From assembly GCA_013201405.1 (NCBI GenBank), contig JABMJC010000011.1, positions 1 to 34,526 on the forward strand: DNA of 34,526 bases, written 5' to 3'. Positions 6,085-24,183 of the stretch are shown in pieces (position 1 is the stretch's first letter; the number at the start of each line of letters is the position of its first letter). Under the pieces are notes generated by a model that made no database searches, was not told where the DNA came from, and saw nothing but the letters and a program-made list of their open reading frames with translations. This DNA comes from Desulfobulbaceae bacterium (lineage in GTDB: Bacteria; Desulfobacterota; Desulfobulbia; Desulfobulbales; Desulfobulbaceae). A program made the translations under genes and the position numbers.

Positions 6085-7374
6085 TTGCCCAAAGAACTCT
6101 CCAATTTTTCTGAAATAGTTGCCCGGCTTGGACCATCACCCACGGTGGTGGTCCAGTCGGCCTTTGCCGAACCGCAAACCCTGCTGCGGCACTTGACCGA
6201 GGCAGCCCCGCTTTTGCATGGGGCACGGCTCTATTGCCTCATGCCCATGGTTATTCCTCCCTATATCCACGCTGATGCAGCCAGGCATTTTGAGGTAGTC
6301 ACCTTCATGCCCGGAGCTGGCTTGCGACGAGCGGTTAATGACAATCAAGCCCAGGTAGAACGCTGCACCTTCTCGGCAATCCCGCAACTCTTTTCCACAG
6401 GAAAGATTGCAGTGCATCTGCTGGTGCTGCAGGTTTCCTCACCAGATGATACCGGCCACGTATCTTTAGGCGTCTCGGTTGATTACATGACAGCTGTGCT
6501 GGTACAAAAGCCGCTGGTAGTGGCCCAGATCAATCCGCACATGCCCTTTACCTCGGGGGATACACGTCTGCCTTTAACGGCACTTGACTATGTACTACAC
6601 CACGAAGAGAACTTGGTACAAACAGGGTCGCCAACAGAGGCCGAGGCCGCCGACCAGGCCATTGCCAAACATGTGGCCGGGCTGGTGGAGCCGGGAGATG
6701 TGCTGCAGGTGGGTATTGGCACCCTGCCGGACTTGGTGCTCGGTCATCTGGGGCATTTGTATAACTTGGGTGCCCATACCGGTATCCTTTCCGCAGGCTG
6801 GCAAAGGCTGATAGAAAGCGGAGTGGTCAACAACAGCACCAAGAAACAGTTTCGCGGCACAACCATTGCCACCATGGCTGGTGGAGATCGTCCCTTTTAT
6901 CAGTTTCTGCACCGCAACCCGCTCGTCGAGTTTTACCCCTGTTCGTTGACCCACAGCCTGGAAACGCTCGTGGCCATTGATCGACTCTGCGCCATCAACA
7001 GTGTCTTACAAATGGATGTAGCTGGCAACTGTAATGCCGAGGGTGTGGCTGGCCGTATTATTGCTGCACCGGGAGGCTTGCCGGATTTTGCTCGTGGGGC
7101 TTCCTTAGCTGTGCGCGGCAAAAGCATTGTCGCATTGCGCTCAAGCTTTGTTGCTAGGCAAACAGGCAAGCGGGTCAGCAATATTGTGGCGGATTTTTAT
7201 GATAAGGCGCCTATTTCCTTAAGTGACAAGTATGTTGATTTTGCGGTCACTGAATATGGCGTGGCCGCACTTGAGGGACTCTCTGCAAACCAACGGGCAA
7301 AGGCGCTCATTGCCCTTGCCCATCCTGAACATCAGCAGCAACTTCACCAACAGCTGAGAAGAAAAACTCTTTGA
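6085..7374 (+). CDS. Acetyl-CoA hydrolase/transferase family protein, catalytic Glu replaced
   Basis: A TTG start at 6085 is chosen because GGAATGGAG lies five bases upstream and the frame ahead of it lies inside icmF; this gives 429 residues. Family features of class I CoA-transferases/acetyl-CoA hydrolases (4-hydroxybutyrate CoA-transferase/Cat type) are clear: VGIGTLPDLVL, SGVVNNSTKK, LQMDVAGNCNAEG, APGGLPDFARGAS and VTEYGVAAL. However, the 'H-T/S-E-M' segment carrying the glutamate that forms the CoA thioester reads HTGILSAG, with Gly233 in its place. It may be a hydrolase/transferase subfamily with other chemistry, or a protein without transferase activity. Position after icmF suggests acyl-CoA activation or release in branched-chain acyl-CoA metabolism. 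The exact substrate cannot be read from the sequence. Confidence 0.85.
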   Translation: MPKELSNFSEIVARLGPSPTVVVQSAFAEPQTLLRHLTEAAPLLHGARLYCLMPMVIPPYIHADAARHFEVVTFMPGAGLRRAVNDNQAQVERCTFSAIPQLFSTGKIAVHLLVLQVSSPDDTGHVSLGVSVDYMTAVLVQKPLVVAQINPHMPFTSGDTRLPLTALDYVLHHEENLVQTGSPTEAEAADQAIAKHVAGLVEPGDVLQVGIGTLPDLVLGHLGHLYNLGAHTGILSAGWQRLIESGVVNNSTKKQFRGTTIATMAGGDRPFYQFLHRNPLVEFYPCSLTHSLETLVAIDRLCAINSVLQMDVAGNCNAEGVAGRIIAAPGGLPDFARGASLAVRGKSIVALRSSFVARQTGKRVSNIVADFYDKAPISLSDKYVDFAVTEYGVAALEGLSANQRAKALIALAHPEHQQQLHQQLRRKTL

Positions 7375-7614
7375 ATCGGGCCTTCCATGCGGCAAAATGC
7401 CCGTTGTCAGTTGTCACTTCGTGTAGTGATGGATGGGATTAAAATCCAGCTTGATCAAAGGCTGTAAAAATAAAAGTATCCATCCCACCGGACAGGTGGC
7501 AAACTCTAAGGGTATAAGGATATAAAAACGGTGGGTTATGGGCACGGCCATAACGGCCAATGAACGTACCTTGCGGGAAACTGGGCAGGATGTATTGACC
7601 TTGCGGTTCACCTC

Positions 7615-8814
7615 CTAGAAAAACAGCCAACCGCCCAGAGCGCAGACCAGCACCACCAGCCAGGGCGGTACCTTCCAAAAAACAAGGGCAATAAAGGCCA
7701 AAAGTGCCAGGGCAAAATCTCGGGGCGCGTGGATGGCACTGGTCCATACCGGATGATAGAGTGCAGAGAGCAGGATGCCCACCACTGCGGCGTTGATACC
7801 GGTCAGTGCTGCCTGCATACGGCCATTGTGTCGCCACTCCTCCCAAAAGGGCAAGGCACCTGCCACCAGCAAAAAAGATGGCGCAAAGATGGCCAGCAAA
7901 CAGATGGAACTGCCCAGCCAGCCATTGGGGGCGCTGTGCATGGAGGCCCCTAAAAATGAGGCAAAGGTGAACAGTGGGCCTGGCACTGCCTGGGCTGCAC
8001 CGTAACCGGCAAGGAAGGTGCTGTTATCCACCCAGCCAGGCGGCACCACTTCGGCCTGCAGCAAGGGCAAGACCACATGACCACCGCCAAAGACCAAAGA
8101 GCCAGCCCGGTAAAAGGCATCGAACAGGGCAAGGGATTGGCTGGGCAACACCCGCACCACAAGCGGCAAGGCGACCAGCCCAACAAAAAAAAGACTAAGC
8201 CACATGAGCCCGCCTTGGCGTGAAATACCAAGTGGCAAAGCCTCCCGGCCAATCTTGCCTTGTGGTTTGAACAAAAACAGCCCTGCCACACCCGCAGCAA
8301 CAATAACTCCCACCTGGGTCCACACATAGGGGGCAAGCAGGACAAAACAGGCACACATGGCCATAAGGGTGGCACGGAGGGCGTCTGGGCACAGGTTTTT
8401 GGCCATACCCCACACTGCCTGTGCCACCACTGCCACAGCCACAATTTTCAAACCCTGCAGCACACCTGGCAAAAACGCTTGGTCAAGGTTGGCCAAGCTG
8501 ATGGCAAAAAGGGTGAGTGCCAGGGCTGAAGGTAAAGTAAAGCCTGCCCATGCAGCAAATGCACCCCTATAGCCTGCACGAAGAATCCCTATGGCTAAAC
8601 CCACCTGACTACTGGCTGGGCCGGGCAAAAACTGGCACAGAGCCACGATATCAGCATAGCTCTGTTCACTCAGCCATTTTTTACGCACCACAAATTCTTC
8701 TCTGAAATAGCCCAAATGCGCAACCGGCCCACCAAAGGAAGTGAGGCCAAGACGCAAAAAAACCAGAAACACATGCCAAGGTTTTGAAGTGCTGTTTGTT
8801 GCCATTGGTCTCAT
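7615..8814 (-). CDS. chrA: Chromate transporter, long-chain CHR family
   Basis: This is an integral membrane protein of the ChrA family, which exports chromate. It has the two homologous CHR halves: the first has LRLGLTSFGGPVAHLGYFRE followed by LCQFLPGPASSQVG, the second has GSLVFGGGHVVLPLLQAEVV followed by GAAQAVPGPLFTFA. About ten hydrophobic segments are visible. The start is uncertain. ATG at 8814 gives 399 residues and ATG at 8805 starts MATNSTSKPW; both lack a strong ribosome site. An in-frame GTG at 8883 would add a polar, unconserved extension. No chrB-type regulator is adjacent. It is alone, convergent with the CoA-transferase-like gene and divergent from the flavin oxidoreductase. 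Confidence 0.9.
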   Translation of the reverse strand: MRPMATNSTSKPWHVFLVFLRLGLTSFGGPVAHLGYFREEFVVRKKWLSEQSYADIVALCQFLPGPASSQVGLAIGILRAGYRGAFAAWAGFTLPSALALTLFAISLANLDQAFLPGVLQGLKIVAVAVVAQAVWGMAKNLCPDALRATLMAMCACFVLLAPYVWTQVGVIVAAGVAGLFLFKPQGKIGREALPLGISRQGGLMWLSLFFVGLVALPLVVRVLPSQSLALFDAFYRAGSLVFGGGHVVLPLLQAEVVPPGWVDNSTFLAGYGAAQAVPGPLFTFASFLGASMHSAPNGWLGSSICLLAIFAPSFLLVAGALPFWEEWRHNGRMQAALTGINAAVVGILLSALYHPVWTSAIHAPRDFALALLAFIALVFWKVPPWLVVLVCALGGWLFF

Positions 8815-18657: not shown

Positions 18658-19017
18658 TTACCAGTGGGCCTCAACATTGGCACTATCGGTATAGGCAAGC
18701 TTTCCTGCACGGTGCGCAGCCACGGCTTCCCGTACTGTACCACTGACCTCTGCAGCCACTTTGATACCGGCAGCTTCAAGAATTTGAAAGGCCTTGGGTC
18801 CGCAATAACCGGTCAGCAAGGCCTGGGCCCCTTTGTCACTGATCATGGTGGCAGCCTGGATGCCCGCACCCTTGAAGGCATTGGCATTGGCACTGTTATC
18901 CACCGCCTCAAAGGCCAACGTATCCTCATCAACCAGGACAATATATTTTGCCCGACCAAAGCGTGGATCCACCTCGCTATCGAGTTCCGGCCCTTTGGCT
19001 GTTACGGCAAGTTTCAT
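18658..19017 (-). CDS. NifX/MTH1175-like iron-molybdenum cofactor domain protein
   Basis: A 119-residue single-domain protein of the NifB/NifX/MTH1175 type, a fold that carries Mo/Fe/S clusters or their precursors. Signature parts are DPRFGRAKYIVLVD near the N-terminus, NAFKGAGIQAA and LLTGYCGPKAFQIL. The orange protein (ORP) of Desulfovibrio belongs to this family and binds a Mo-Cu-S cluster. Here it is the last gene of a minus-strand operon that also codes for a second NifX-like protein and two ferredoxin-bearing ATPases, which matches the ORP gene context. No nif structural gene is present in the window, so a nitrogenase role is not supported. Confidence 0.85.
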   Translation of the reverse strand: MKLAVTAKGPELDSEVDPRFGRAKYIVLVDEDTLAFEAVDNSANANAFKGAGIQAATMISDKGAQALLTGYCGPKAFQILEAAGIKVAAEVSGTVREAVAAHRAGKLAYTDSANVEAHW

Positions 19018-19033
19018 GGTTTACCTCCCCGGC

Positions 19034-19414
19034 TTAACGGCCGCCACCACCACATACCTGCTGATCGGTAATGAGCGCCAGTTTGCTAGCGGCAAAATCT
19101 TCCACAACCGGGCGTATCGCCGGCTGCTCAGCCTCGTGGTACACTGCAATGCCCATTTGTTTGAAGCCCATCAGCGGTCGCATGCCAATGCCACCAACCA
19201 CAATGGCATTCACTTTCTCCTGAACCAAGAGCTGCACCGGGACCATGCAGCCTCCCTGCACATGCTCCTTGTTGGCCACAATCCGCACAGCGCCGATTTG
19301 GCCATCTTCAATGTCAATACAGGTAAAAACATCGCAGTGGCCGAAATGGCCCGCCCGCACACCATCCAAACCACCTTCGCCCTGCGAAGGAATTGCCACA
19401 CGTACTACAGCCAT
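19034..19414 (-). CDS. Second NifX/MTH1175-like protein
   Basis: ATG 19414 is chosen because AAAGGAGTAGTT lies just ahead; a start at 19456 would overlap the upstream gene. The 126-residue protein has the same fold: IPSQGEGGLDGVRAGHFGHC, CMVPVQLLVQEKVNAIVVGG, IGMRPLMGF. It differs from the neighbouring copy by a His/Cys-rich start of the fold (GHFGHC), an EHVQGGC segment and a C-terminal VCGGGGR, possible metal ligands. It lies 14 bases after the ATPase gene and 16 bases before the other NifX-like gene. A paired function as cluster carriers is likely but inferred. Confidence 0.83.
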   Translation of the reverse strand: MAVVRVAIPSQGEGGLDGVRAGHFGHCDVFTCIDIEDGQIGAVRIVANKEHVQGGCMVPVQLLVQEKVNAIVVGGIGMRPLMGFKQMGIAVYHEAEQPAIRPVVEDFAASKLALITDQQVCGGGGR

Positions 19415-19428
19415 AACTACTCCTTTTC

Positions 19429-20331
19429 TCAAGTATACATCTTCAACGTCAAGCACTGCTCGCTGTCCTTGGGCAGTGCCGCCAAAACTCTTGTCCAGAT
19501 AATGCGCAGTTCCTGCTGGTGCTCCTCTGCACCGGCATATTCAAAAATGGTCTGCCCCTGAACCATGGCCCTGGTGAACACAGGGTCAAAGGGGATGCGA
19601 CCAATACAAAGCGCGCCGCGCTCACTGGCAGCTGCTTCGATTGTTTGCGCCATATCGGCATTCAAATCGTACTTGTTGATGAGCAGCCTGGCCGGCACCT
19701 TGAAATGAGCAGCCAAATCCAGCACCCGCTCCAAATCATGTCTGCCTGAAAGGGTGGGCTCCACCACGACCAGTAGCAGGGATGCCCCGCCTATGGCGGC
19801 AATCACCGGACAACCGATGCCTGGCGGGCCATCAGTGATGATCAATTTTTTGTTTTCCTCTTCAGCCAGTTGCATGGCCTCCTTGCGGACCAGATGCACC
19901 AGCCTGCCGGAATTTTCTTCAGCAATACCCAGGCGAGCATGCACCAATGGGCCAAACCGGGTGTCGGAATGGAACCAGTGACCACACACTTGTTCCGGAA
20001 AATCAATGGCTCTTTCCGGACAGAGATCCACACAAACACCGCAACCTTCACAAAGAATCTGATCGACCATCAGTTCTGTGCTGATGGCTGCAAAGCGGCA
20101 CAACTCCCTGCAAACGCCGCACTGGTTGCAGCGCTCTGCCACAATAACTGCTTTAGAGCCACCAATAAACTCATGCTGCTCTTTGATGGTGGGCTGAAGC
20201 AACAGATGCAGGTCGGCGGCATCCACATCGGCATCACAAAAAACTGCATCAGCAGCCAAGGCACAAAAGGCAGCGGTGAGCGTGGTTTTACCCGTACCCC
20301 CCTTGCCGCTGATGATGACTATCTCATGCAT
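19429..20331 (-). CDS. MinD/CooC-like ATPase with two [4Fe-4S] sites (ORP operon type)
   Basis: A 300-residue P-loop ATPase of the MinD/Mrp/CooC superfamily with an inserted double ferredoxin. The deviant Walker A is ISGKGGTGKTTLT (about residues 8-20). The insert has two C-x2-C-x2-C-x3-C sets: Cys68/71/74/78 and Cys94/97/100/104. TDGPPGIGCPVIAA forms the Walker B/switch region. Such proteins form pairs encoded next to NifX-like genes, for example in the ORP operon of Desulfovibrio, and are thought to assemble or deliver metal clusters. Its start overlaps the end of the sister ATPase gene by eight bases, so the two are translated together. Confidence 0.88.
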   Translation of the reverse strand: MHEIVIISGKGGTGKTTLTAAFCALAADAVFCDADVDAADLHLLLQPTIKEQHEFIGGSKAVIVAERCNQCGVCRELCRFAAISTELMVDQILCEGCGVCVDLCPERAIDFPEQVCGHWFHSDTRFGPLVHARLGIAEENSGRLVHLVRKEAMQLAEEENKKLIITDGPPGIGCPVIAAIGGASLLLVVVEPTLSGRHDLERVLDLAAHFKVPARLLINKYDLNADMAQTIEAAASERGALCIGRIPFDPVFTRAMVQGQTIFEYAGAEEHQQELRIIWTRVLAALPKDSEQCLTLKMYT

Positions 20332-21184
20332 GCACCTTCTCCTTATGCGCCTGCGTCAGCTGGTCAATATCTTCATAGAGTTGTAAAAAGGTCTCCCTCC
20401 ATACCGGCAAGGCCTCAATCAGTGGTTTCCCCTCGGAATAGAGTTCTGCAATCCGGCGATCAAAGGGAATGCTGAGCAAAACCGGCAGATTTTCCTGCTG
20501 GGCATACCTATACACCTCGTCTGTACCAATATCTGCCCGGTTGATGACCAAACCGCAGGGGATATCCAAGAGCCGCACTGCCTCCACTGCCAGCTTGAGA
20601 TCATGCAAGCCAAAGGGCGTTGGTTCGGTCACCAGCACTATACAATCAACCCCACTCATGGCGGCAATCACCGGGCAGGAGGTCCCGGGCGGTGCATCAA
20701 TGATGCTAATTTTACGCGAGTCGGCCTGAGCGCGCACCTGTCGAATAAGCGGCGGGGCCATGGTTTCGCCGATGCGCATGCGGCCGGATAGAAATGAGAG
20801 GCCATTTTTGTGGCCTGCACTAACCTCGCCGAGCTGCCGTTTGCCTTCGCTGAGCGCTCCGGTTGGACAAACCAAGGTGCAGCCGCCACAGCTGTGGCAC
20901 AAGTCCTGAAAAATCAGCACCTTCTTCGCCACCATGGTGATGGCGCTGAAGCGGCAAATCTGCGCGCATTGACCACAAAACGTGCACAAAGATAAATCAA
21001 CCAGGGGTATTGGGGTATAGATTTCCTTGCTGCCGGATATCTCTGGTCGGAGAAAGATATGCGCGTTGGGCTCTTCCACATCGCAATCCAACAGTTCTGC
21101 CCGCTCTCCCAAGGCCAAAGCCAGGTTGACGGCTATGGTGGTTTTGCCGGTGCCGCCCTTCCCACTCGCTATGCAAAGCTTCAT
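20324..21184 (-). CDS. MinD/CooC-like ATPase with two [4Fe-4S] sites, sister copy
   Basis: A 286-residue paralogue of the next gene. Walker A SGKGGTGKTTIA (residues 7-18), Cys67/70/73/77 and Cys96/99/102/106 as two [4Fe-4S] ligand sets, and DAPPGTSCPVIAA are all present. It overlaps the downstream sister by eight bases and follows the receiver-like gene by ten, so it sits inside the operon. Two paralogues encoded together suggest a heterodimer, as proposed for the homologous pair of the Desulfovibrio ORP complex. The substrate cluster is not known. Confidence 0.88.
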   Translation of the reverse strand: MKLCIASGKGGTGKTTIAVNLALALGERAELLDCDVEEPNAHIFLRPEISGSKEIYTPIPLVDLSLCTFCGQCAQICRFSAITMVAKKVLIFQDLCHSCGGCTLVCPTGALSEGKRQLGEVSAGHKNGLSFLSGRMRIGETMAPPLIRQVRAQADSRKISIIDAPPGTSCPVIAAMSGVDCIVLVTEPTPFGLHDLKLAVEAVRLLDIPCGLVINRADIGTDEVYRYAQQENLPVLLSIPFDRRIAELYSEGKPLIEALPVWRETFLQLYEDIDQLTQAHKEKVHA

Positions 21185-21194
21185 AATTTTTCAA

Positions 21195-21599
21195 CTACTG
21201 GTTTGGTGCGTTTGCTGTGGTATTGTTCAGCAAGCCACTGATATGTGCCATGCGCTGCAAAATTTGCTCTGCATCGCTGTGGTCTGGTTGGAGTGGCAAC
21301 TGCATGAGTACCCCAAGCCCTTCGGTGAACTCATGGAAATCTTCGGGCGCAAGAGCACTGCACAGGGCTGTGTGCACTAGGGGAAATTGTGTGGCCACCT
21401 GACGCACACAGGCAACACCCGAGCTATCTTCCAGAAGCTCCGCGGCAATAAGCAACTGCACGTTCTTTTCTGCAAGGGTTTGCAAAGCAGCAGAGGCTGA
21501 ACTCACTGGAATCAATTCGGTTTTTGGCTCCTGCCGCAACCGGTCCACCAGGGAGACAAAACCAGAATAATTTTTGGCCGCAAAAACAATACGCAGCAT
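21195..21599 (-). CDS. Degenerate receiver-domain protein (134 aa)
   Basis: The 134 residues follow a CheY-like receiver pattern: MLRIVFAA strand 1, VQLLIAAELLEDSSG where the phospho-acceptor strand lies, TALCSALAPEDFHEF and GVLMQLPLQ. The key residues are missing: strand 1 has no acidic pair, Ala-Glu replace the phosphorylated Asp, and Gln replaces the conserved Lys. It is therefore a pseudo-receiver, if a receiver at all, and probably a protein-protein module. No DNA-binding or catalytic domain is attached. It lies between the Gly/Arg/Gln-rich gene and the ATPase pair, so a scaffold role for the complex is plausible. I cannot name it further. Confidence 0.6.
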   Translation of the reverse strand: MLRIVFAAKNYSGFVSLVDRLRQEPKTELIPVSSASAALQTLAEKNVQLLIAAELLEDSSGVACVRQVATQFPLVHTALCSALAPEDFHEFTEGLGVLMQLPLQPDHSDAEQILQRMAHISGLLNNTTANAPNQ

Positions 21600-21607
21600 C
21601 TCAACCT

Positions 21608-21814
21608 TTACCCTCTGAGTCCGCCCTTGCCTGCAGCGCCTCTGCCACGCCCGCGACTGCAGCGATTACGGCCCATTCCTCTGCCCTGCCCCTGGCCTTG
21701 CCGCAAACCCTGGCCGCAAGGACCTCGCCCTTTGCCCATACCTGGCTGGTTTGTCTGGCCCTGCCGGGAAGCGGTTTGATTGTTTTGTTCCAATTCCTGA
21801 TTAGTCCTATTCAT
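21608..21814 (-). CDS. Gly/Gln/Arg-rich small protein, first gene of the ORP-type operon
   Basis: ATG 21814 is chosen because AAGGAGGAACAC precedes it. A longer frame to 21898 would run through the inverted repeat. The 68 residues have a polar Gln/Asn-rich start (MNRTNQELEQNNQTA) and then GMGKGRGPCGQGLRQGQGQG, continuing as Gly-Arg repeats with two Cys. It is similar in style to small Gly/Met/Arg-rich proteins (DUF5320 type) seen beside NifX-like and Mrp-like genes; this is a resemblance only. Likely intrinsically disordered. The function is unknown. It heads the minus-strand operon, nine bases ahead of the receiver-like gene. Confidence 0.65.
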   Translation of the reverse strand: MNRTNQELEQNNQTASRQGQTNQPGMGKGRGPCGQGLRQGQGQGRGMGRNRCSRGRGRGAAGKGGLRG

Positions 21815-21848
21815 GTGTTCCTCCTTGATCAGGTTACAAGCGAGCATC

Positions 21849-21882
21849 TTTTTTGTCCGATATTCGTACATCGAACAAAAAA
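21849..21882 (-). repeat. 13-base inverted repeat in the leader of the ORP-type operon
   Basis: TTTTTTGTCCGAT (21849-21861) and ATCGAACAAAAAA (21870-21882) are inverted repeats with one mismatch (a G-T pair in RNA), spaced by eight bases. It lies between the promoter and the first ribosome site. It may act as an operator or as a leader hairpin ending in T residues. Confidence 0.6.
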
Positions 21883-21908
21883 ATGTTGCCCGCTTCATTA
21901 TGTGTTAC

Positions 21909-21936
21909 ATTATAAGGAGTGCATACACAATTGCAA
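21909..21936 (-). promoter_or_regulatory. Sigma70-type promoter of the ORP-type operon
   Basis: On the minus strand TTGCAA (21936-21931) and a perfect TATAAT (21914-21909) are spaced by 16 bases. No sigma54-type GG-N10-GC element was recognised in the intergenic stretch, in contrast to the Desulfovibrio operons. Confidence 0.55.
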
Positions 21937-22074
21937 TATTTTTTCTGTAAAAAATTTTGAAAAACATAATACACGCAACAAGGCTTGATCTAGATACAAT
22001 GGGTAGCCATGGTGCGTGAATGTGCATGCTCTACCCAAGACACTATATCATATAACTTAAAAAGGTGCACAGTC

Positions 22075-23763
22075 ATGAATAAAATTGTGGTGATTGGCGG
22101 TTCTGCCGCAGGGGCCAAGGCAGCAGCAAGGGCAAAAAGAATGGATGAGTCTGCAGAGGTGACCATCATTCAAAAAGATCCGGATCTTTCCATGGCCACT
22201 TGCGGGTATCCGTACTATGTGGGTGGTGTTTTCGATAATCGGGCAGCTTTGATCAGCGCACCCACGGGAGTGGTGCGCGATGCCACCTATTTCCGCAACG
22301 ACAAAGGCATTACTGCTCTGATCAATACTGAGGCGACCAGCATTGACATCGATAAGAAAATCGTGCACTGCCGCTCTGTACAAGGAGACAGTGAACGTGA
22401 GATTCCCTATGATCGGCTTATTCTGGCCATGGGTGCACATGCAAACATTCCGCCCATTACCGGTCGAGAAGCCTCGGGTATCACTACCCTCACCTCCATG
22501 GCTGACACCGACTACCTGCGTCGTCTCCGCGATGAGAAAAAAGTACAGCGGGTGCTGGTGGTCGGCGGTGGTTTGATCGGAGTGGAGGTTTGTGAAGCGC
22601 TGCAGCATTCTGGTATTCAGGTCACTTTGGTGGAAGCACTCGACCAGATACTGCCTTTTCTTGATTGGCAGTTGGCCAAACTGGTGGAACAGCACATGCA
22701 TTCCCAGGGCGTTGAGGTGATCTGCGGTGTGGCTGTGCAGGAATTTCTCACGGATAAGGGGGCGGTATGCGGCGCACGCCTGCAGGATGGTCGGGAGATT
22801 GACTGTGGTGCGGTGGTGCTGGCCGTGGGGGTACGGCCCAACACGGCACTGGCGAAAAACGCCGGCCTTGAATTGGGAGATTTTGGCGGCATTCGCGTCA
22901 ACGAGTTCATGCAAAGCTCCCATTCAGATATTTATGCTGCCGGCGACTGCGTGGAGATTCCCAGTCGTTTGACTGGCAAACCTGTTTTTGCACCCATGGG
23001 TGATCTGGCCAACCTGGAAGGACGGGTGGCCGGAGAAAATGCGGCCCTTGGTAATCACGCCACCTTTCCGGGCACGATCCATTCAGGTATCTGCAAGGTT
23101 TTCGCTTTTCAGGCGGGCTCTACAGGCATGTCGGAAAAAATGGCACAAAAGGCCGGTATACAGGGCTATACCGCAGTGATGCATGCCAGCCCGGACAAGC
23201 CAGGTTTCATGGGGGCCAAACTGCTTATCTCGAAATTACTAGTGGATGCCGACCAGCGCATCATTGGTTATCAGTGCGTCGGCCCCGGTGATGTCAGCCG
23301 GCAAATCGCCACAGCAGCCATGGCTATTCAGGGCAAGCTGACGGTGACAGAACTGGTCAACAGCGACTTGCCCTACGCGCCACCCTTTTCCCTGGCCATT
23401 GACCATTTTATCGCAGCAGCGCATGTGATGCAGAACAAACTGGCCGGGTTGTTCACCGGTATCAGCGCTCAAGATGTTTGGGAAATGGTTCAAAAAAGTG
23501 AGAATGTGCACTTTCTGGATGGTCGTAGCCCGCAGGAGTTTGCAGAGATGCGCCTGGGTATCGGCGAAAAGTTGCTACCCATTGGTGCCCTGCGCTCCCG
23601 CCTGGCAGAACTGCCCCAGGATAAGGCCACACCCATTGTCTGCTTTTGCAAGATTTCCATGCGCGGCTATGAATCGGCCCGCGTGCTCCAGGCCAATGGG
23701 TATACCAATGTGCGGGTCATGGAAGGCGGCATCATGGCTTGGCCCTATGCCCGGGAAAAATAA
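22075..23763 (+). CDS. CoA-disulfide/polysulfide reductase with C-terminal rhodanese domain
   Basis: ATG 22075 has AAGGTG upstream and begins at the FAD motif; an in-frame start at 22009 lacks a ribosome site. The 562-residue flavoprotein shows KIVVIGGSAAGAKAAARAKR for FAD, SMATCGYPYYVGG with the redox Cys43 typical of CoA-disulfide reductases, VLVVGGGLIGVEVCEAL for NAD(P)H and YAAGDCVEI. The last ~100 residues are a rhodanese domain with CKISMRGYE (Cys525 as sulfur carrier). The layout matches NADH-dependent persulfide/polysulfide reductases of the CoADR-Rhd/Npsr type, which reduce zero-valent sulfur. It is divergent from the ORP-type operon and ends at a clear terminator. Confidence 0.92.
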   Translation: MNKIVVIGGSAAGAKAAARAKRMDESAEVTIIQKDPDLSMATCGYPYYVGGVFDNRAALISAPTGVVRDATYFRNDKGITALINTEATSIDIDKKIVHCRSVQGDSEREIPYDRLILAMGAHANIPPITGREASGITTLTSMADTDYLRRLRDEKKVQRVLVVGGGLIGVEVCEALQHSGIQVTLVEALDQILPFLDWQLAKLVEQHMHSQGVEVICGVAVQEFLTDKGAVCGARLQDGREIDCGAVVLAVGVRPNTALAKNAGLELGDFGGIRVNEFMQSSHSDIYAAGDCVEIPSRLTGKPVFAPMGDLANLEGRVAGENAALGNHATFPGTIHSGICKVFAFQAGSTGMSEKMAQKAGIQGYTAVMHASPDKPGFMGAKLLISKLLVDADQRIIGYQCVGPGDVSRQIATAAMAIQGKLTVTELVNSDLPYAPPFSLAIDHFIAAAHVMQNKLAGLFTGISAQDVWEMVQKSENVHFLDGRSPQEFAEMRLGIGEKLLPIGALRSRLAELPQDKATPIVCFCKISMRGYESARVLQANGYTNVRVMEGGIMAWPYAREK

Positions 23764-23892: not shown

Positions 23893-24183
23893 TCACCCCT
23901 GATATACACAACTGATTAAATCCGCCGTAGCCACATCCAAGCCCTGGCCCTGCAACAGGCTCACAACTTGTTGAATTTGTGCCGGCACATCACCTTCGGC
24001 AGCAATATACAATTCACACTCACCAGTTTCTAACTGATAGCCCGCTTTAGCCAGGAGTCTGTCTACCCGACTCAGATCATCCACCAAAAGTCCAAAACGG
24101 GAAAAATCGTTCATGTAAAAAAGCGGCCAGTTGCGGGTGCACTGTGTCAGGCTCCCCTTTTGCCGTACAATAATCTGCGCCAT
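23893..24183 (-). CDS. Small hypothetical protein with possible ACT-like fold
   Basis: A 96-residue protein following the HxlR-type gene by 11 bases, with GTAGGAGGATACAGG ahead of its ATG, so the two are cotranscribed. It has alternating strand/helix segments (RFGLLVDDLSRVDRLLAKAG, then CELYIAAEGDVPAQIQQVVS) that suggest an ACT-type or similar ferredoxin-like alpha-beta fold, with no catalytic motif. It has three Cys and no membrane segment. I do not recognise a named family. A role as an effector-binding partner of the regulator is conceivable but unproven. Confidence 0.6.
   Translation of the reverse strand: MAQIIVRQKGSLTQCTRNWPLFYMNDFSRFGLLVDDLSRVDRLLAKAGYQLETGECELYIAAEGDVPAQIQQVVSLLQGQGLDVATADLISCVYQG

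Follow-up and report, generated by a model that had tools for sequence, protein, structure and literature searches.

We analysed a 34,526-nucleotide (nt) stretch of DNA from a Desulfobulbaceae bacterium (hereafter the window), which is the entire contig JABMJC010000011.1 (C155) of a 2.46-Mb genome (G000), and found that six minus-strand genes running from position 21814 down to 18658 form what is, judged by sequence, an operon of the orange protein (ORP) family. The operon probably encodes a machine for metal-sulfur clusters in which a degenerate receiver protein, Rec, serves as a docking subunit, and which is run in this lineage from a sigma70-type promoter. A broader proposal, in our view possible rather than probable, is that across Desulfobacterota a receiver fold stripped of phosphorylation may be a structural subunit of an anaerobic metal-sulfur machine, docking an IscU-type (NifU_N) scaffold onto a module of NifX2 and double-ferredoxin ATPases, and that the original orange protein may have in it a partner that has been overlooked. 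The six genes, in transcriptional order, are as follows.

21608..21814, minus strand: gly, a basic, Gly/Gln/Arg-rich protein of 68 aa; AAGGAGG precedes the ATG
21195..21599, minus strand: rec, a 134-aa pseudo-receiver with an AlphaFold2 model, fold matches in the PDB and Ala at the place of the phospho-Asp
20324..21184, minus strand: atpA, a MinD/Mrp-type ATPase with the deviant Walker A motif GKGGTGKT and two [4Fe-4S] motifs
19429..20331, minus strand: atpB, a second MinD/Mrp-type ATPase with two [4Fe-4S] motifs
19034..19414, minus strand: nifX2, a NifX-fold protein with HFGHC and a C-terminal VCGGGGR
18658..19017, minus strand: nifX1, a homologue of the orange protein (ORP/Orp8 type), by match to structure 2WFB and by tree

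The presence, coordinates and tight spacing of these genes agreed with the initial annotation of the window, ranging from an 8-base overlap (atpA/atpB) through gaps of 8 (gly/rec), 10 (rec/atpA) and 14 bases (atpB/nifX2) to one of 16 bases (nifX2/nifX1). Both NifX1 and NifX2 scored above the Pfam cut-off for Nitro_FeMo-Co (E = 1.1e-16 for NifX2), so that the earlier call of two NifX-like proteins was sound. The nearest solved structure to NifX1 was 2WFB, the ORP of D. gigas (E = 9e-29), with MTH1175 as the runner-up (3.7e-14). In a tree of 98 rows and 131 columns, with 27 of the 95 inner branches left open, NifX1 fell into a starred set of 30 rows that also contains 2WFB and 12 of 18 NifX1 sequences found at loci encoding MrpORP (Orp9 of D. 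vulgaris, an Mrp protein fused to a Di-Nase domain); NifX2 formed a clade of its own (17 rows, 99/84), and NifX3, encoded upstream of the operon in many relatives, formed another. The annotation had staked its reading on the NifX-like proteins grouping with ORP; NifX1 does so by both structure match and tree, but NifX2 does not, its clade lying beside the ORP clade. The C-terminal VCGGG was present in all 14 NifX2 tails inspected, of 65 NifX2 proteins found. The MrpORP profile NF041136 gave 48 bits with NifX2 and 20.5 with NifX1, which suggested a derivation of NifX2 as a split-off C-terminal domain of MrpORP. The tree, which has few columns and long branches, did not support this, NifX2 being sister to the ORP clade (99/99) with the MrpORP domains outside it. 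Most of the NifX3 copies inspected (L023-L037, e.g. L024) carried a Cys/Arg-rich stretch like MPGCGKNICCRGKIRRGR, suggesting a metal site.

AtpA and AtpB each contained a CbiA domain and two Fer4 stretches in Pfam searches, in keeping with their first description as ATPases with double [4Fe-4S] insets. The AtpA orthologues of 18 relatives were 57-77% identical to it, and a search of solved structures with AtpA returned ferredoxin-domain proteins and proteins of the MinD/ParA/Mrp/ArsA type; its best NCBIfam match was archaeal MinD, at 65.7 bits far below the cut-off of 201.75.

Rec had been called a degenerate receiver, and its model has the receiver fold while the canonical phosphorylation residues are gone. 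Receivers carry an acidic pair, a phosphorylatable Asp and a Lys. Rec resembles CheY-type receivers in its modelled fold (predicted local distance difference test, pLDDT, 96; predicted template modelling score, pTM, 0.88; Foldseek E = 1.2e-6 to 3hv2; VIA Z = 16.8 to 3crn) and in that the Rec proteins of two relatives passed the Response_reg cut-off of 30.2 bits, narrowly (30.9 and 33.3 bits); the window protein itself had no Pfam match. It is unlike them in that A-K-N follows strand 1 in place of the acidic pair, Gln stands at the Lys position and the acceptor is Ala, as it also is in the two nearest relatives, and in having a conserved region, FHExTEGLG...QLP, instead. Of 78 readable rows, 49 had Asp at the acceptor position, 13 had Ala and 11 had Gly; Gln stood at the Lys position in 67 of 80 rows, and the acidic pair was unconserved. 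The invariance of FHExTEGLG in the 80 loci of a named-genome scan arises partly by construction, the pattern having served as the scan query; HEx[TS]EGxG was present in 20/20 loci found with the window protein.

Rec was less conserved than the ATPases (60-65% versus 74-76% identity). Between the relatives' loci L051 and L052, however, rec had a nonsynonymous divergence (dN) of 0.117 against a synonymous divergence (dS) of 1.087, and dN was well below dS in five operon genes, all but gly, for which dS was not computable. Rec is thus kept by selection although it lacks the Asp, which makes docking likelier than phosphotransfer; for a receiver fold without the canonical phosphorylation residues, a docking subunit is therefore the likeliest role. 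We also considered whether the Asp was lost because a sigma54 activator, encoded upstream in many relatives, was lost, and rejected this: of the 42 readable named loci with the activator, 19 lacked the Asp, and of the 16 without the activator, 5 lacked the Asp and 11 had it, the gapped row of L107 being excluded. In L103 (8590-9261), DUF134 and a Response_reg-matching Rec lie in one 223-aa frame.

The neighbourhoods of rec were compared in two sets of loci. Among 55 related genomes, rec was present in 21 including our own, giving 20 other loci; the named-genome scan gave 80 loci, mostly from Desulfobulbaceae- or Desulfocapsaceae-type names (including Desulfobulbus rhabdoformis, D. alkaliphilus and D. 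elongatus). Because several contigs are common to both, the two sets are not independent. The order rec-atpA-atpB-nifX2-nifX1 was found in 18 of the 20 relative loci, with L039 and L040 deviating, and exactly in 58 of the 64 named loci with at least 3.3 kb downstream. Of the 60 named loci that extend at least 4.2 kb on the downstream side, 27 had a NifU_N-like (IscU-like) gene there, two such proteins being confirmed by Pfam; no NifU_N-type gene adjoins the operon in the window. Upstream, nifX3 was present in 47 of the 59 named loci with at least 3 kb on that side, and in 40 of them nifX3 was accompanied by a same-strand PAS-sigma54 activator. The conserved order, with dN below dS, shows that the operon is more than a chance arrangement. 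The receiver and Gly-rich genes had been regarded as extras of this operon, a view that has to be given up, both being standing parts of a Desulfobulbales-type locus; the conservation of the receiver gene with the ATPase genes, which the annotation had set as its own test, held in the relatives and, as described next, across the phylum. Separately, a NifU_N-like domain was seen in one frame with an Mrp-type protein in L150 (6929-8626) and L029 (387-1658).

In a phylum sample of 247 genomes, a Rec profile built from 40 rows gave 28 matches in 27 genomes; 25 of these places were examined anew, the remaining three being already in the earlier set. We found nifX2 in the same stretch as rec in 23 of the 25. 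Of the other two, L193 is an additional copy within genome G168, and in L180 the contig stops 340 bases upstream of rec. Gene order varied across the phylum, yet rec and nifX2 occurred together in many families. MrpORP was over its cut-off in 36 of the 247 genomes and, by the NF041136 cut-off, in none of the 55 related genomes searched (up to order level, own included). In 20 MrpORP loci taken from those 36 genomes we found atpA in 16, atpB in 16, nifX1 in 18, nifX3 in 12, the activator in 10 and a NifU_N-like gene in 10, with rec in none. A strict mutual exclusion of rec and MrpORP was nevertheless rejected, 3 of the 27 rec genomes (G086, G239 and G283) also holding MrpORP on other contigs.

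One genome of this phylum, G308 (family of G093), encodes the 2WFB segment with 107/107 identities, and we infer from sequence that it is D. gigas. Its locus, L207, has the order Gly/Gln/Arg-rich open reading frame (ORF), DUF134 with ORP, atpA, atpB, nifX2, and NifU_N with rec; DUF134 and ORP share one 249-aa frame (6886-7635), and NifU_N and rec lie in one stop-free frame in both L207 and L181. From 129 matching genomes we examined the loci of 12, and rec was present in eight; in L214 it is on the opposite strand, some 5 kb away from nifX1. Contig ends truncate two of the four loci without rec (L208 and L218) but not the other two (L209 and L217). The words 'orange', 'ORP' and 'MinD' do not occur in the main text of the D. 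gigas genome paper (PMC4287179). Among the titles and abstract openings found, none described a receiver in ORP loci; the defining 2011 J Bacteriol paper lies outside that scope, and absence from print is not claimed.

Two elements were recognised in the gap upstream of the operon.

21909..21936, minus strand: sigma70-like promoter TTGCAA-16-TATAAT, matching 10/12 consensus positions; the block GAAAAAATATTGC is also present in L022, the locus of a relative
21849..21882, no strand: operator-like palindrome with 13-nt arms, 92% complementary, and an 8-nt spacer, downstream of the -10 box

The initial annotation had reported no sigma54 activator and no sigma54 promoter here, and a genome-wide search and a scan of the gap agree with it. 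With a -24/-12 consensus of 11 scored positions, the gap (21815-22075) contained no site on the operon strand, the best on the other strand matching 6/11. In the relatives, nifX3 matches of more than 100 bits were found in 58 loci, and of the 51 nifX3 genes that had an anchor motif and 150 nt of upstream sequence, 47 were preceded by a -24/-12 site, compared with 0.49 in shuffles; control scans upstream of atpA, rec and atpB gave 0/71, 5/77 and 0/70. A -24/-12-like site (10/11) in L022 and L052 falls within the coding sequence of the divergent reductase and was put down to chance. No nifX3 was found anywhere in our genome or in its two nearest relatives (G004 and G013), draft assemblies that are 99-100% complete, and the best activator matches in the three are only 50-52% identical (50% in our own, where the match lies elsewhere in the genome), in open frames of 834-851 residues; matches of the same kind occur in genomes with a cognate activator, e.g. 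G001 and G015. RpoN is present in our genome. The window lineage is thus marked by loss of the sigma54 activator, nifX3 and the -24/-12 promoter, and the proposed variant ORP system with different control is supported in the form of a loss of sigma54 control in this lineage. Such a loss is not unique to this lineage, because the activator and nifX3 are absent upstream in other loci too (e.g. L058, L090, L103, L106 and L123), but the window lineage offers a clean case of the operon without its relatives' sigma54 control in a cell that keeps RpoN. As for the sigma70-like promoter also proposed at the outset, the pair does exist, at 21936-21909, and parts of it are kept in L022, but it is statistically weak by itself, because the gap contained four promoter-like sites, near the shuffle level of 2.7 (standard deviation 1.8). 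The palindrome, TTTTTTGTCCGAT-N8-ATCGAACAAAAAA, lies between the -10 box and gly; it was rejected as the mark of a regulon, its core occurring once in the whole genome and not being kept in L022.

The Gly-rich protein contains 13 Lys and Arg, 2 Asp and Glu, 19 Gly and 2 Cys among its 68 residues. A Gly-rich gene was found by eye at the equivalent upstream position in 14 of the 20 relative loci (L033 begins at a contig end), so that its suggested conservation with the ATPases holds for position and makes a weaker case than that of the receiver. The protein matched no Pfam family at E values up to 1, the DUF5320 profile (PF17253) included, and is DUF5320-like by position and composition. Most relatives' Gly-rich proteins begin like MPGxDGxGPxGxGP..GRGxGxC, the DUF5320 pattern, whereas this start is absent from the window protein and from that of L022, and the L021 protein is cut off before its start; of two relatives' proteins compared with DUF5320, one reached 24.7 bits (cut-off 27) and the other gave nothing. 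A genuine DUF5320 is present in the MrpORP locus L143.

Taken together, we suggest that the operon encodes a machine that would make, hold or deliver metal-sulfur clusters. By analogy with known systems, AtpA and AtpB may form a heteromeric ATP-driven carrier that loads or moves clusters, NifX1 and NifX2 may carry them, and the basic Gly-rich protein may balance anionic thiometallates by its charge or store them, like the tail of IssA. Rec would be a phosphorylation-independent subunit that docks a NifU_N (IscU-like) scaffold to NifX2 and the ATPases, and expression in this lineage would be driven from the sigma70-type promoter. Several observations weigh against this interpretation. The docking role draws on two one-frame ORFs and on neighbourhoods, and a restart inside the NifU_N/rec frames is possible, so that the fused product is a candidate. 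The Asp persists in 49 of the 78 readable receivers, so that Rec may still be phosphorylated in some lineages. Because no NifU_N-type gene adjoins the operon in the window, the docking partner there would be NifX2, one of the ATPases or a scaffold encoded away from the operon, and because a NifU_N-like gene occurs in 10 of the 20 MrpORP loci and rec in none, a scaffold in an ORP locus needs no Rec. The sigma70-like promoter is identified solely by its match to the consensus, and cell-division roles have been proposed for the D. vulgaris ORP proteins (PMC6345978).

That proposal, together with the polar location of MrpORP in D. vulgaris (PMC6345978) and the archaeal MinD as best, though far sub-threshold, NCBIfam match of AtpA, would fit a MinD-like positioning system in which the ATPases determine where the complex or the septum sits, with Rec as an adaptor for localisation or signalling in the style of CheY-like or DivK-like proteins; the double [4Fe-4S] insets, NifX partners and recurrent NifU_N scaffolds point rather to cluster chemistry, and we consider positioning unlikely. 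A buffer or detoxification system for Mo/Cu thiometallates, with the ATPases loading clusters for storage and not for delivery to enzymes, is a more serious contender, though still a doubtful one: NifX1 is an ORP homologue, a basic Gly-rich protein stands alongside, and the ORP bears an S2MoS2CuS2MoS2 cluster (PMC6345978), as in the Mo-Cu cluster of D. gigas ORP, but the NifU_N scaffolds in the loci suggest Fe-S assembly. Rec might also be a remnant or regulator, a phosphorelay relic that has been decaying in this lineage since the activator was lost. Our genome and its two nearest relatives all lack the activator and all have Ala in place of the Asp, and Rec is less conserved than the ATPases; however, 19 of the 42 readable named loci with the activator lack the Asp as well, dN is far below dS between L051 and L052, and Rec lies in one frame with a scaffold and accompanies nifX2 in other gene orders, all of which makes this reading very improbable. 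To our knowledge, the role of the orange protein and of its Mo-Cu cluster is still unclear.

Divergent from the operon is a recurrent neighbour, which we do not claim as part of it.

22075..23763, plus strand: CoA (coenzyme A)-disulfide-reductase-like protein with a rhodanese domain

Such a gene was found near the operon in 9 of the 20 relative loci and 16 of the 80 named loci and may contribute to sulfur supply. Further along, 23893-24183 encodes a 96-aa protein without a Pfam or NCBIfam match, beside a gene judged HxlR-like by eye; the pair is also present in L022.

Compared with the D. vulgaris ORP complex (orp1/orp2, DVU2103-2109), the operon has in common two MinD/Mrp ATPases with two [4Fe-4S] motifs each (Orp3 and Orp4) and an ORP protein of NifX fold (Orp8), matched by NifX1. 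It differs in having neither MrpORP, which according to PMC6345978 transfers Fe-S to Orp3-Orp4-Orp8 in vitro, nor a cognate sigma54 activator and sigma54 promoter; in being a single operon and not a divergent pair, the divergent gene being the reductase-like one; and in adding Rec, a free NifX2 and the Gly-rich protein. A gene for an Orp5-like small [2Fe-2S] protein was not recognised in the operon, without sequence comparison to DVU2105. The relatives, not the window, share with D. vulgaris a PAS-sigma54 activator whose GAFTGA loop is altered (39/63), the loop of DVU2106 being given as GAFTDA in PMC4641369. Because MrpORP and sigma54 control were both looked for and neither was found, we do not file the operon as a D. 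vulgaris-type ORP complex. The IssA thioferrate store of Pyrococcus furiosus likewise combines a NifX-type domain with a basic Gly-rich segment, a tail proposed to bind thioferrate (PMC5524996), although gly is a gene of its own in the window and the likeness is drawn from described features. The 2WFB locus L207 resembles the operon in content, with ORP, the ATPase pair, NifX2 and Rec and with a Gly/Gln/Arg-rich ORF lying upstream of ORP, but has an ORP-first order, with DUF134 in frame with ORP and NifU_N in frame with rec. This frame of pseudo-receiver and NifU_N in a locus matching 2WFB offers a concrete, testable set of partners for the orange protein and a possible tie to cluster assembly.

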